From the NCBI RefSeq assembly GCF_014191985.1, contig NZ_JACHXI010000006.1, forward strand, positions 62,001-126,000: a stretch of 64,000 nt of DNA, in the 5' to 3' direction. This document shows, one piece after another, positions 54,501-59,953 of this stretch. A program made the position numbers and the translations under genes. Below the pieces are notes generated by a model that was given only the letters and a program-made list of their open reading frames with translations, did no database searches and was not told the origin of the DNA. This stretch comes from Azomonas macrocytogenes (GTDB lineage Bacteria > Pseudomonadota > Gammaproteobacteria > Pseudomonadales > Pseudomonadaceae). Position 1 is the first letter of the stretch, and every line of letters starts with the position of its first letter.

Positions 54501-54675
54501 AGAACCTGTTCACGATCTGCTGCGCGTCGGCCAAACGGCGTTGAAACCAGCCTGGATCGCCAGCCCGGTCGAAATGCTCATTTACCATTCGTAAACTCGC
54601 ACGCGAGCCCGGTCCGCTTCCTCTGCCGTTTTCGCCACCGTTTGGCTCTAGCTCGCGAGATCGTGAACAGGTTCT
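54501..54675 (+). mobile_element. MITE-like 175-bp element, copy 2
   Basis: The termini are perfect 18-bp inverted repeats: AGAACCTGTTCACGATCT at 54501-54518 and AGATCGTGAACAGGTTCT at 54658-54675. The whole element is nearly identical to the inverted copy at 25782-25956. It carries no transposase and must have moved with help in trans. Its right end abuts, and supplies one base of, the stop codon of the neighbouring lipoprotein gene. No clear target-site duplication. Confidence 0.85.
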
Positions 54676-55115
54676 CACGGCCAGCAGTAGACCATTTCTG
54701 CCTCTGCCAGATCTTGATGCGCGGCATCTTGCAGGAAGGCATAAGGGTTGAATCCCAGCGAGTACGCTGCGATACGGTAACGCTGCCCGGCCTGGAATGC
54801 ATCGTAGTGGACCACCAGCTGGCAACTGCGACGATATTTGCCGGTATCCCGTCCACCCCCGCCTATGACTTCGAAGTCGTAACGCACTTCGAGTTCATGA
54901 GCACCAGGGGTTACCTGGAAATAACGCCCATCGTCGACCCGTGTTTCATCCAGCCGGTCGGCCATCAGATAGTCGCTCGGCGGCTTGCTCATGTCGACCC
55001 AGGCCTGTTTGAGGTCGGGCTCGGGCAATGGCCCGGCACAACCGGCCAGGGCCATCGGCAGTAGCGCGATAGCCAGTCTGGCCAGGTCGCCAGGCTTCAG
55101 GACGCGCCGCCGCAT
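54675..55115 (-). CDS. Predicted lipoprotein, paralogue 1
   Basis: A 146-residue lipoprotein (lipobox LAGC at about 22-25). The mature protein begins with a QAWVDM motif and contains GRYFQVTPGAHELEVRYDFE and RYRIAAYSLGFNP. It is clearly paralogous to the upstream gene, which it overlaps by 19 bases. Role unknown. Its stop codon lies at the edge of a MITE, so the original C-terminus may have been changed by that insertion. Confidence 0.8.
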   Translation of the reverse strand: MRRRVLKPGDLARLAIALLPMALAGCAGPLPEPDLKQAWVDMSKPPSDYLMADRLDETRVDDGRYFQVTPGAHELEVRYDFEVIGGGGRDTGKYRRSCQLVVHYDAFQAGQRYRIAAYSLGFNPYAFLQDAAHQDLAEAEMVYCWP

Positions 55116-55513
55116 CCCCGCTCCGTGGCACGGGCCAGCAGGTTATTGTTTGCATCGTAGAGCTTGGCCCACGGGCGGAAACCGAGGCCGCCGGCGACCA
55201 GGCGATAGCGGCTGCCGGCACTGAAATCGGCATATTCGAGGCTCAGCCGGCAGTCGCGCTGGAGCGGCTCGGTACCGCCCACATTGGCGGCATTGACGGT
55301 GAAGCGAGTGCGCATGTCCAGGCGGCGGCTACCAGGGTCGACCTGGAAATAACGGGTGTCACGCAGTTGCTCCTGATCCACCGCAAGGGCTTCGAGCTGA
55401 GTCTGGTTTTGCGGCTGCAAGTCGATCCACGCCTGGTCGGGGTTGGGGGTTGGTATCCACAGCGAACAACCGCCAAGGGAAAGCAATACCAGTCCGGGCA
55501 TCAAGCCGCGCAT
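55097..55513 (-). CDS. Predicted lipoprotein, paralogue 2
   Basis: A 138-residue lipoprotein with lipobox LGGC at residues 13-16. Shared blocks with the next gene are QAWIDL, TRYFQVDPGSRRLDMRTRF and SRYRLVAGGLGFRPWAKLYDA. The pair arose by tandem duplication and is translationally coupled. Function is unknown; size and pattern suggest a periplasmic-facing beta protein. Confidence 0.82.
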   Translation of the reverse strand: MRGLMPGLVLLSLGGCSLWIPTPNPDQAWIDLQPQNQTQLEALAVDQEQLRDTRYFQVDPGSRRLDMRTRFTVNAANVGGTEPLQRDCRLSLEYADFSAGSRYRLVAGGLGFRPWAKLYDANNNLLARATERGCGGAS

Positions 55514-55725: not shown

Positions 55726-56817
55726 ATGCGACATATTTTCGTTCTACTTTATCATTTGCTACTGCGCCGGATTTTCCTGCTGTCGGTTTTGTTGCTAAGT
55801 GGTTGTGCCAGCTACTATGGCCAGCTCGCCTCGGGGCAGCTTTCGCTGCTCCAGTCGCGCCAGTCCATCGACACGCTGATCGGCGACCCTGGGCAGGACG
55901 CCGAACTGCGCCAGCGCCTGGCCTTGCTGCTCAAGGCCCGCGCCTTCGCCAGCAGCAATCTCGGCCTGCCGGATAACGCCAGCTACCGGCAATACGCGGA
56001 CATCCAGCGTTCCTATGTCGTATGGAACGTCTTTGCCACTCCCGAGTTCTCGGTCGAGCCGCTGCAACACTGCTTCCCCATTGCCGGCTGCGTCGCCTAT
56101 CGCGGCTATTTCCACCAGAGCGCCGCGCGGGCAACAGCGGCCGAACTGAGCCTGACCGGCCTGGACACCCTGGTCGCCGGCGTGGATGCCTATTCCACCC
56201 TCGGCTGGTTCGCCGATCCGGTACTCAGCTCCATGCTGCGCCGCAACGATGAACAGCTCGCGGCCCTGGTTTTCCACGAACTTGCGCATCAGCGGCTGTA
56301 TCTGCCGGGCGATACCGCCTTCAACGAGTCCTATGCCAGCTTCGTCGAACAGGAAGGTTTGCGCGAATGGCAGGCGCTGCGCGGTCTGCCGCCGCCGCGT
56401 GCGGAACGGGAGCGCGCTTACCGGCAACTGGTGGAACTGGTGCTGGCAACCCGTGAACGGCTGCGCGTGCTCTATGCCTCCGGCCAGCCGGAAGCGATCA
56501 TGCGGACGAACAAACAGGCCGAATTCATGCGCCTGCGGCAAGCCTACCATCGGCTGCGCGAGCGGGACTGGAAAGGCCAGGGCTACTTCGATCACTGGAT
56601 CAACCAGCCGCTGAACAATGCCACACTGCTGCCGTTCGGCCTCTACGATGGCTGGACGCCCGCCTTCGCGCGCCTGTTCGAACAGAGTGGGCGCAACTGG
56701 CCCGAATTCCATGCCGCCGTCGAAAAGCTCGCCCAATTGACTGACAGCGAACGCAATCGCCAGCTACAGGCGCTGATGACAGAGCAGGGACAGCAGACGC
56801 AAACCGCTGGAACCTGA
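55726..56817 (+). CDS. Predicted zinc aminopeptidase lipoprotein (PF10023-type)
   Basis: A 363-residue lipoprotein (LLLSGC lipobox near residues 22-27) with the metalloprotease motif HELAHQ at about 184-189 and the downstream NESYASFVEQEG that supplies the third ligand region. The family is annotated as predicted aminopeptidase. The ATG at 55726 is preferred; a TTG three codons earlier is possible, and neither has a strong ribosome site. It probably acts at the inner face of the outer membrane. Confidence 0.88.
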   Translation: MRHIFVLLYHLLLRRIFLLSVLLLSGCASYYGQLASGQLSLLQSRQSIDTLIGDPGQDAELRQRLALLLKARAFASSNLGLPDNASYRQYADIQRSYVVWNVFATPEFSVEPLQHCFPIAGCVAYRGYFHQSAARATAAELSLTGLDTLVAGVDAYSTLGWFADPVLSSMLRRNDEQLAALVFHELAHQRLYLPGDTAFNESYASFVEQEGLREWQALRGLPPPRAERERAYRQLVELVLATRERLRVLYASGQPEAIMRTNKQAEFMRLRQAYHRLRERDWKGQGYFDHWINQPLNNATLLPFGLYDGWTPAFARLFEQSGRNWPEFHAAVEKLAQLTDSERNRQLQALMTEQGQQTQTAGT

Positions 56818-56847
56818 TTACGCAAGCCCGTTTCGCGCCCGGATGGC

Positions 56848-57015
56848 TCAGGCGGCACTCTCGTGACCATTGCGCAACGGCGGCGGCAGAAGCCGCGGTT
56901 CTGCATTCCTGAGTTGCCGCGCCAGTTTCAGCAGATCCTGTTTTTCCATATACGGCACGGATAGGGTGGGTTTCTGGAGACTGTCATGGATGTATTTCAC
57001 ATGGCTGGAAGACAT
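56848..57015 (-). CDS. Small SOS-box-linked protein, 55 residues
   Basis: A 55-codon minus-strand ORF beginning MSSSHVKYIHDSLQKPTLS and ending in RNGHESAA. It has an AGAGGA ribosome site seven bases before ATG, and a perfect LexA-type operator directly upstream (57030-57049). The product is basic, with a helical middle (MEKQDLLKLARQLRN) and a proline run (LLPPPL). No family recognised. The regulatory context makes it a likely real, damage-induced gene rather than a chance frame. Confidence 0.65.
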   Translation of the reverse strand: MSSSHVKYIHDSLQKPTLSVPYMEKQDLLKLARQLRNAEPRLLPPPLRNGHESAA

Positions 57016-57029
57016 GGCGATTTCCTCTT

Positions 57030-57049
57030 TACTGTATTTTTATACAGTA
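57030..57049 (-). promoter_or_regulatory. LexA (SOS) box
   Basis: A perfect 20-base palindrome-like operator TACTGTATTTTTATACAGTA, matching CTGT-N8-ACAG with an AT-only core. It lies 15 bases upstream of the small gene at 56848-57015, so LexA binding would block its promoter. It is also about 225 bp upstream of the plus-strand cas3 remnant. Confidence 0.85.
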
Positions 57050-57275
57050 TTGCTTCCAGGCGCAATCGGCAAGCCCGATCTGCTTCCCTGCCAGCAGGGC
57101 AGGGTGGAATGCCTGCCACGTTTGAGCGCTCTGTCCCGGTTAGGAAAAGCGCTTTGCTATCTAATTCGCTGCCATGAAGACGTTGCGAGACTTGCTCTAT
57201 GGCGAACTATTACGGTTTCTTCAAAAAAACGGGAGCTGGATTGTTCTTACTGAACTTTGTTGATTCGGAGTCGCG

Positions 57276-57542
57276 ATGAGTGTTCCACCTTCTTATACAG
57301 CTCACTATCGTAAATCTGACGATACGTGGCAGCCTCTTTCCGAGCATTTATTTGGTGCAGCCGCTTGGGCCAGAATTTTTGCCCGGAAACTGGGCATGGA
57401 GCACTTGGGTGAATTGCTGGGCTTGTTGCACGATCTCGGCAAATACAGTCAGGAATTTCCGGCTTATATCAAGTCAGCTATCGGCTTGCTGAAGTCGCGC
57501 CCCACGCGGGCGCGCGGATTGAAACGTCGTGCTCTCGAGTAG
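57276..57542 (+). pseudogene. cas3: Cas3 HD-nuclease N-terminal fragment (type I-C)
   Basis: An 88-codon frame. The first roughly 73 residues match the N-terminus of Cas3 HD domains: YTAHYRKSDDTWQPLSEHL (His24) and LLGLLHDLGKYSQEF (His52-Asp53, Lys56). After SAIGLLK the frame runs into a CRISPR repeat and stops at TAG 57540. The rest of cas3 (helicase) and all of cas5, cas8c, cas7, cas4, cas1 and cas2 are missing. The start ATG looks original. It is a deletion relic. Confidence 0.8.
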
Positions 57543-57595
57543 AGAGAGGACCATTGGCAGGTCGTGCCCCGCGCGGGCGTCGGTATTCTCGCAAC
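57494..57595 (+). CRISPR. Vestigial CRISPR array: one repeat, one spacer, one degenerate repeat
   Basis: A 32-base repeat at 57494-57525 begins GTCGCGCCCC and ends GCGGATTGAAAC, the form of type I-C repeats. A 35-base spacer follows (57526-57560). From 57561 a second copy starts GTCGTGCCCCGCGCGGGCG (17 of 19 bases as in the first repeat) and then degrades through about 57595, as leader-distal terminal repeats do. No leader is visible. The array directly abuts the Cas3 fragment. Confidence 0.75.
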
Positions 57596-57607
57596 CACCA
57601 GTCCATG

Positions 57608-58675
57608 CTATGGCCGCGGTGGGGAGGGTAGCAGGTCGTGGCGTTTCATCAGGGTGCGCAGGGTGTGCCGGCTGATGCCGAGGCGGTCGGCGCTGTGTAC
57701 CTGGTTGTAGCGGTGACGCCTGAGCGTGGTTTCCAGAAGCAGTGATTCCCAGCGTGCGAGAAGGCTGTCGTCGCCGCGTTCCAGCAGTTCGGCCAGTTGG
57801 CGCTGGATGTCTTGCCAGAGGGTATCGCTGGGTGTGATGCCGGTTCGTTCGATGGATGAAGGGCTGGCCGTCCGGCGCTGCAGTTGCAGGTGCCAGGTTT
57901 CGATCAGTGGCCCTTCGCTCTGTAGGGCAGCGCTCAGCAGCGTGTTTTCCAACTCGCGGATATTGCCCGGCCAGTCGTGTGCCAGTAGGCACTGCATGGC
58001 CTCCATCGAGAGCCAGGGTTCTTTACGGGTATGTTCGCGGGCGAACTGGCCGAGGAAGTGGCGGGCCAGCGGCAGGATGTCACCAGGGCGTTCGCGCAAG
58101 GGGGGAATGCGCAGGGTGACGATATTGAGGCGGTAGAAGAGGTCTTCGCGAAAGCGTCCGCTGGCGATGGCTGCTTGCAGGTCTACATGGGTGGCACTGA
58201 TCAGGCGGACGTCGATGGGGATCGGCTTGCGTCCGCCGACCCGTACGACTTCGCGTTCTTGCAGCACGCGTAGCAGTTTGACCTGCAGTATCAGCGGCAG
58301 GTCGCCGATTTCGTCGAGGAACAGGGTGCCGCCGTGGGCTGCTTCGAACCAACCTTCGCGCCGGCCGATGGCACCGGTGAAGGCGCCGGCTTCGTGGCCG
58401 AAGAATTCGCTTTCGGCCAGGCTTTCGGTGATGGCTGCGCCATTCACGGCAATGAATGGCCCTTTGCGTCCGCTGCATTTGTGAATATGGCGCGCCAGCA
58501 GTTCCTTGCCGGTACCGGTTTCACCCTGGATCAGTACGGCGACCGAGCTGTCGGCTACTCGCTCGGTCTGCGCCAGGAGTTGCTGCGAGCGCTCATCGGC
58601 AAATAGCAAGGCTTTGGCGCGGATTTCTTCACGACTGTTTTCATGGTCGGCCAGGGTCAGGATGGGGACGTTCAT
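57608..58675 (-). CDS. Sigma-54-dependent transcriptional activator (SfnR-like)
   Basis: A 355-residue enhancer-binding protein without a receiver domain. AAA+ motifs: Walker A GETGTGKE at 51-58, GAFTGA at 97-102 (sigma-54 contact), [10 protein letters not shown], and a C-terminal Fis-type helix-turn-helix ([20 protein letters not shown]). Size and lack of sensor domain recall SfnR, which activates sulfone/sulfonate use. It is divergent from an AtsK-type dioxygenase preceded by a -24/-12 promoter, its likely target. The ATG at 58675 is chosen for family length. Confidence 0.88.
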
Positions 58676-58732
58676 GAGGGCCTCGTGTTGAATGCTTTCA
58701 AGGCAATCTAGCGAGCTCTTCTTATGTTTAAA

Positions 58733-58757
58733 AATAATCAAATAAGCTTTGATTATT
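58733..58757. promoter_or_regulatory. AT-rich palindrome in the divergent activator/dioxygenase region
   Basis: A perfect ten-base inverted repeat (AATAATCAAA and TTTGATTATT around a five-base centre), followed by CTTTTTTTAC on the plus strand. Located 58 bp upstream of the activator start. It may be an operator, or a terminator isolating the two units. Confidence 0.4.
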
Positions 58758-58912
58758 CTTTTTTTACAAAAAATCGACTCCGCCTACTGCGGCGAACCCG
58801 GCAGATCGCGCCGATCGCTGCGTTGAATCCAACAGTGGGTGCAGGTTTCCCTGACTTGCAAAAAGCTCTGCAGGCCGCATGAATCCTGGCGTTGAGTGTA
58901 TGCTGCGAATGA

Positions 58913-58928
58913 CGGCACGCTTTCTGCT
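58913..58928 (+). promoter_or_regulatory. Sigma-54 (-24/-12) promoter of the dioxygenase gene
   Basis: CGGCACGCTTTCTGCT fits the TGGCACG-N4-TTGCW consensus except at the first base and one base of the -12 block; GG and GC are spaced by exactly ten bases. It lies 111 bp upstream of the AtsK-like start and in the right orientation. Confidence 0.65.
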
Positions 58929-59038
58929 TTGTCCCTTGTACCGCGAACTTGCCGATGGTCATCGCGGCTCGCCAGGGTCTTCCCCTCCCATGGCCAATAT
59001 TCCAATCACGACCCGGCAAATTCTGGAGGAGAACCGAT

Positions 59039-59953
59039 ATGAGCCTGAATATTCAGCCTGTAACCGCCCGTATTGGCGCCGTCGTTGAAGGCGTGCGCCT
59101 GACCGATCTGAGTGATGCGCAGTTTGCCGAACTGCAGCAGGCCGTACTCAAGTACAAGGCGTTGTTCTTCCGCGACCAGCATCTAAGCGACGCCGAGCAG
59201 GAAGCCTTCACCCAGCGTTTCGGTGAACTGGTGGTCCATCCTACCATTCCGACAGTGGAGCACACGCAGGGTATCTTCGATGTCGATTCCGAGCGTTCAC
59301 GCGCCAACTCGTGGCATAGCGATATCACTTTCGTGGTCGATTATCCGAAGATCAGTGTGCTGCGGGGCGAAGTGATCCCTGCGTTCGGCGGTGATACGGT
59401 GTTCGCCAATGCTGCCACCGCCTACCAGGATCTGCCGGAACCGCTGCGTAACCTCGCCGACAGCCTCTGGGCGCTGCATACCAACGATTATGACTATGCC
59501 GCGCCGAAGCAGATCGAGGCGGTAGCCACCAATCGCTTCCGGAACGAGTTCACTTCCACCGTCTATGAGACCGAGCATCCTTTGGTGCGCGTACATCCCG
59601 AGACCGGCGAGAAGGCTTTAGTGCTCGGGCATTTCGTCCAGCGGCTCGTCGGCCTCAGTAGCCATGATTCACAGCAACTGCTGAGGATTTTCCAGCAGCA
59701 TGTCGTCAGCCTGGAGAATACCGTGCGCTGGCGCTGGCGGCAGGGTGATGTGGCCATCTGGGACAATCGTGCCACCCAGCATGTTGCAGTCGATGATTAT
59801 GGCGATGCCCGCCGTATCGTGCGCCGTACCACTGTGGCCGGTGAGATTCCGGTATCGGTCAACGGTGAATCCAGCCGGGCGCTCAAACCTTCGCCGGAGA
59901 GCCGCATACCGCACAGCGAGCAAGCCAAGCTGGGGCTGAAAAAAGCCAGCTGA
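59039..59953 (+). CDS. atsK: Alkylsulfatase-type Fe(II)/2-oxoglutarate dioxygenase (AtsK/TauD family)
   Basis: A 304-residue TauD/TfdA-family dioxygenase closest in pattern to AtsK, which oxidatively cleaves alkyl sulfate esters to release sulfate. The iron site is His93 and Asp95 in NSWHSDITF and His248 in WDNRATQH; the 2-oxoglutarate arginine is in ARRIVRR. The ATG at 59039 has GGAGGAG upstream. A sigma-54 promoter and a divergent sigma-54 activator suggest induction in sulfate starvation. It may instead prefer sulfonates. Confidence 0.88.
   Translation: MSLNIQPVTARIGAVVEGVRLTDLSDAQFAELQQAVLKYKALFFRDQHLSDAEQEAFTQRFGELVVHPTIPTVEHTQGIFDVDSERSRANSWHSDITFVVDYPKISVLRGEVIPAFGGDTVFANAATAYQDLPEPLRNLADSLWALHTNDYDYAAPKQIEAVATNRFRNEFTSTVYETEHPLVRVHPETGEKALVLGHFVQRLVGLSSHDSQQLLRIFQQHVVSLENTVRWRWRQGDVAIWDNRATQHVAVDDYGDARRIVRRTTVAGEIPVSVNGESSRALKPSPESRIPHSEQAKLGLKKAS

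Follow-up and report, generated by a model that had tools for sequence, protein, structure and literature searches.

A probable deletion remnant of a type I-C CRISPR-Cas locus in Azomonas macrocytogenes

Type I-C CRISPR-Cas operons are arranged in the order cas3-cas5c-cas8c-cas7c-cas4-cas1-cas2-leader-array, an order seen in part in the relatives compared here. Degraded CRISPR/cas loci have been described in Escherichia and Salmonella, where the cas cluster is deleted totally or partially and the terminal repeat is degenerate at its 3′ end almost always (PMC2886076). In Pseudomonas aeruginosa PAO1, a short orphan array without a full cas operon of its own has been read as a possible remnant (PMC11687729). 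The locus described here lies at positions 57276–57592 of a 64,000-nucleotide stretch of A. macrocytogenes DNA, which was analysed whole and is called the window below. It consists of a cas3 fragment, one repeat, one spacer and a decayed terminal repeat, and so shares both cas cluster loss and a 3′-degenerate last repeat with the Escherichia and Salmonella loci. Those loci, however, belong to other subtypes, and their losses were seen by strain comparison (PMC2886076). Unlike the PAO1 array (PMC11687729), the array here has a cas3 fragment joined to it directly, and fragment and repeat together name the subtype. Judged by titles and the beginnings of abstracts, none of the papers listed in our literature searches deals with a lone I-C spacer attached to a stub of cas3. 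We think it quite probable that the locus is a dead, degenerate type I-C system that was left by one internal deletion and is now inert.

The 5′ fragment of the I-C cas3 gene occupies 57276–57493 on the plus strand: some 72 codons and two further bases, or roughly the first tenth of the gene. It contains the HD motif HDLGK, and its translation matches the NCBIfam cas3_HD model TIGR01596 over residues 21–70 with 43.7 bits (E 2.9e-11), just exceeding the cut-off of 43.45. The Pfam HD model scored 22.6 bits against a cut-off of 22, whereas Pfam Cas3_HD, at 19.1 bits, fell short of its cut-off (23.1). The full Cas3 of a type I-C system, an HD nuclease with a helicase, is not present here; of the metal ligands of the HD site, presumably just the first ones fit within the approximately 72 residues that are left. 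The open reading frame that contains the fragment (57276–57542, plus strand) reads through the repeat and reaches its stop codon within the spacer, giving 88 residues of which the last 15 or so are not Cas3. Searched by tblastn in the named genomes, the stub has relatives encoded by 55 loci among 165 pattern-matching stretches, at no more than 63–65% identity; the best of them, 58–65% identical, include Burkholderiales MAGs, Methylibium, Roseateles and Sideroxydans. Its own genome gave one match to the stub query, and tblastn with the stub found no relatives in plasmids (E up to 1e-4) or phages (E up to 1e-3).

Homology to Cas3 ends with CTGAA at 57493, and the repeat starts at 57494, so that the two abut without a spare base. 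At this place the ten best relatives aligned encode Asn (AAC or AAT); in the window the codon is cut off after AA, and the next base is already the initial G of the repeat. The 32-nt repeat (57494–57525, plus strand) ends in GGATTGAAAC, as the repeats of I-C loci do, and is followed after its GAAAC end by a 35-nt spacer (57526–57560). The second repeat, at 57561–57592, agrees with the first in 17 of its first 19 bases and in 5 of its last 13. The first-pass annotation had described an HD N-terminus running directly into a repeat, a spacer and a decayed repeat, and both the TIGR01596 match and the repeat alignment bear this out. Because the downstream repeat is of the terminal, decayed type, the spacer is leader-distal, as had also been claimed, and it would then be the oldest of the array.

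The subtype given to both pieces also held. The nearest repeats found in the proposed comparison are in I-C loci of the same family: the window repeat has 1 mismatch to the array repeat of genome G021 and 2 to those of G003, which is of the same genus, and G005, all three being genomes that carry Cas8c. The Cas3 piece groups in the tree with the Cas3 of confirmed I-C loci L056 and L060. Rfam, searched over 57200–57650 at E up to 1, gave a sole match, to CRISPR-DR9 at 57494–57525 (E 0.0058), whose 23.6 bits are below the gathering score of 45. The distance of 67 nt from repeat to repeat agrees with I-C arrays that have 32-nt repeats, whose period is about 64–70 nt, and the orientation matches them as well. 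Over the 64-kb window, on both strands, one other 19-mer agrees at 16 of 19 bases (36835) and none other at 17 of 19. The first repeat folds at −15.4 kcal/mol, only a slight gain over shuffled sequences (z −1.63; 14 of the 200 did as well), and the second no better than shuffles (z 0.59). The repeat pattern and a 338-base query each have one match in the genome itself; the 338-base query matches 5 of the 57 genomes searched, this one included, and in the other four (G003, G005, G021, G027) the matches are array repeats nearly throughout.

The reading of the spacer as a fossil of past infection fared less well. It is a generic statement, and no credible target was found in phages, plasmids, IMG/VR or the 148 genomes of the family. 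Blastn of the spacer gave no match in phages; in plasmids it gave one 24-nt Rhizobium stretch at E 1, which was rejected as chance. Exact spacer seeds of 18–21 nt had no match in IMG/VR. A 16-nt seed led to 22 IMG/VR contigs, which were likewise rejected: the whole spacer agreed at only 18–22 of 35 positions in all 22, and none had an adjoining TTC, which we take to be the I-C PAM. The spacer has no second match at up to 3 mismatches in its own genome.

The order and orientation of the two remnants are those of I-C loci, as the first-pass annotation had it. Among 78 loci surveyed, 45 had an array readable in a scan of the cas3 strand only, and in 44 of these the array starts 7.7–10.0 kb downstream of the cas3 match and on its strand; in the one exception, L092, it lies upstream (two of the 78, L069 and L161, are apparently the same record). 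The remnant shares the Cas3 HD N-terminus with G003 and G021, in which Cas8c, Cas3 and an array were seen, and with L056 and L060. These last two loci encode near relatives of the stub; Cas8c and Cas1c were confirmed in both, and Cas5c in L056. What sets the remnant apart from all of them is that everything from about codon 72 of cas3 to the last full repeat is missing, which would make it a non-working member of the group. Several loci with stub-like Cas3 (L056, L057, L059, L060, L062, L077, L221, L222) have repeats of 37–38 nt, not the usual 32 nt, with a period of about 70–75 nt where shown; family scans identify L056 and L060 as I-C. Repeat lengths come from a rough majority-rule script and leave loci without a readable array uncounted.

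The loss of the cas genes, also proposed from the first reading, is borne out for those searched for across the genome, namely cas8c, cas5c, cas1 and cas3. Cas8c (TIGR01863, Csd1), the signature protein of the subtype, is absent from it and was found in 6 of the 148 family genomes. Cas5c (TIGR01876), the subunit that processes crRNA, has no match in the genome even at E 10. Cas1 (PF01867) matches at two places only, in separate I-E and I-F loci. One is the Cas1 of a type I-E locus in which Cas3, Cse1, Cse4 and Cse3 were confirmed; the other adjoins I-F Csy3, Csy4 and Cas3f and is assigned to I-F by these neighbours. Among 16 cas3_core matches in the genome, only that of the I-E Cas3 is over the cut-off; two of the others are in the I-F Cas3, and the remaining 13 are weaker. 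The I-E locus is at G000:C1 84500–104000 (L126), where 38 copies of an 18-base segment of its repeat were counted, and the I-F locus at G000:C4 100500–120000 (L125), with 12 copies of such a segment. With no Cas5c in the genome to cut crRNA, and no Cas8c as the signature subunit of Cascade, the remnant should not work and is expected to be inert.

Our preferred model is a simple one. An I-C operon would once have stood between the aminopeptidase and sigma-54 activator genes, and a deletion would have begun after about codon 72 of cas3 and ended where the last full repeat starts, or a few bases short of it. Lost with it would have been the remainder of cas3, another six genes, the leader and every spacer but the last, roughly 8–10 kb if other I-C loci are a guide. 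One deletion of the size of the usual cas3-to-array distance would explain the order, the orientation and the abrupt joint together. The remainder would have neither effector nor processing enzyme, and it probably gives rise to no product. The first-pass annotation had arrived at the same collapse by a single deletion; its deletion is supported by the remnants, their order and the gene loss, while its claim of one single event goes further than these observations do.

Several observations count against this model: a joint exactly at the repeat edge, the upstream array of L092, the draft state of the assembly, the 13 weaker cas3_core matches, the lack of an intact or empty version of the site in the relatives, and a Cas3 lineage other than that of the family's six I-C loci joined to a repeat that is nearest to theirs. 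By simple arithmetic, a random breakpoint in a 67-bp unit has about 1 chance in 67 of falling exactly on the repeat edge, and about 4 in 67 when as many as three shared bases are allowed. No readable leader ends in GAA (that of L101 is masked), which would be the microhomology between cas3 and leader. The 5′ edge of the repeat is where spacer integration normally begins, and joining there by Cas1-Cas2 is its normal first step. It is conceivable, though we consider it very unlikely, that the deletion was the work of the system's own adaptation machinery, which in a misfired half-site integration joined a broken 3′ end inside cas3 to the 5′ edge of a repeat. In a weaker form of this idea, fragments of two I-C lineages may have been fused at the repeat edge.

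The mismatch between the Cas3 and repeat lineages raises another explanation, in which the cas3 fragment and the repeat-spacer-repeat came from two I-C loci, or operon and array were exchanged before decay. In a tree of Cas3 N-termini with 75 rows, the stub falls within a starred set of 27 rows (98/93), to which none of the six I-C Cas3 proteins found in the family (G003, G005, G021, G027, G076, G163) belongs. Of the 78 loci, four were left out of the tree: L069, taken to duplicate L161; L112, which lacks Cas3; L107, which is too short; and L110, with E above 1e-5. A YIKSA-G-like stretch is common to the stub and most of its set and is missing from the five family Cas3 proteins aligned. The window repeat (loop CACGC), in contrast, has 1–4 mismatches to the family I-C repeats and 4–9 to the seven 32-nt repeats compared from the stub's own set. 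Ten loci have a Cas3 at least 57% identical to the stub; the six of these with a readable array all have 37–38-nt repeats, and the other four have no readable array. These repeat lengths were the reason a composite was favoured at first. It was demoted because the stub's Cas3 lineage also occurs with 32-nt repeats, in L160–L166. L224, of that same lineage, has a repeat 3 mismatches away, counted by eye, and beyond the family, G710 and G527 have repeats that differ at 2 positions (the pattern is present in 3 of 369 genomes of the class, this one included). Several unrelated repeats are also 4 mismatches away, which makes repeat likeness a weak marker, and the tree rests on 74 columns, with a bootstrap that had not settled. 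A composite origin is thus possible and unneeded, and we regard it as unlikely. Since the six I-C loci found in the family carry Cas3 of another lineage than the stub, the comparison suggests that the ancestral locus was probably acquired separately and not inherited with them.

Two further explanations concern the assembly and the present use of the locus. Short reads cope poorly with CRISPR arrays, and the genome is a draft of 70 contigs, so a short-read assembler might have collapsed the array and dropped the operon. The site, however, is inside a 222-kb contig, the I-E and I-F arrays of the same genome were assembled with many copies, and Cas8c and Cas5c are found nowhere in a genome whose completeness is given as 99.99%. 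An artefact of this kind is therefore highly improbable. It is harder still to believe that the remnant has been domesticated, with the one-spacer array or the 88-residue HD peptide retained in another role, for instance as a regulatory crRNA. The open reading frame is indeed still open and the first repeat still folds, but its z score is modest, the C-terminal end of the peptide is translated repeat and spacer, and the genome offers neither Cas5c nor Cas8c. The lack of another match to the spacer in its own genome also speaks against such a role. Decay by one internal deletion remains our preferred reading of the locus.

The site itself was followed through 57 genomes, this one included, and neither an intact nor an empty version of it was found among them. 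In the three relatives where the aminopeptidase occurs together with an unambiguous orthologue of the sigma-54 activator (G034, G012, G001), the two genes are on different contigs, and in G003 the aminopeptidase is at a contig end. At 57608–59953 the sigma-54 activator is divergent from the gene of a TauD-family dioxygenase, and the pair is also divergent, about 0.4–1.7 kb apart, in G034, G027 and G012. On the other side, two tandem paralogous small genes on the minus strand (54675–55115 and 55097–55513; 38–39% identical, lipoprotein-like by eye) adjoin the aminopeptidase. Of nine loci of relatives examined, eight have both genes next to it as well (L032 and L034–L040, not L033). The intergenic stretch 56801–57275 has no homology to the compared loci at E 0.01. 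It contains a minus-strand open reading frame of 55 residues (56848–57015) without a Pfam match at E 1. The palindrome TACTGTAT-TTTT-ATACAGTA (57030–57049) lies 14 bases upstream of the start of this frame; we take it to resemble a LexA (SOS) box, and the window holds no further copy at up to 2 mismatches.

Decay of this kind is ordinary and common, and only the instance is new; the remnant on its own alters no view. The exact joint at the repeat edge can be tested for across genomes. Finally, the locus is a clean example of one CRISPR-Cas system dying in a genome that keeps two others, and since its subtype and one old spacer are preserved, it can usefully be counted in studies of CRISPR turnover.
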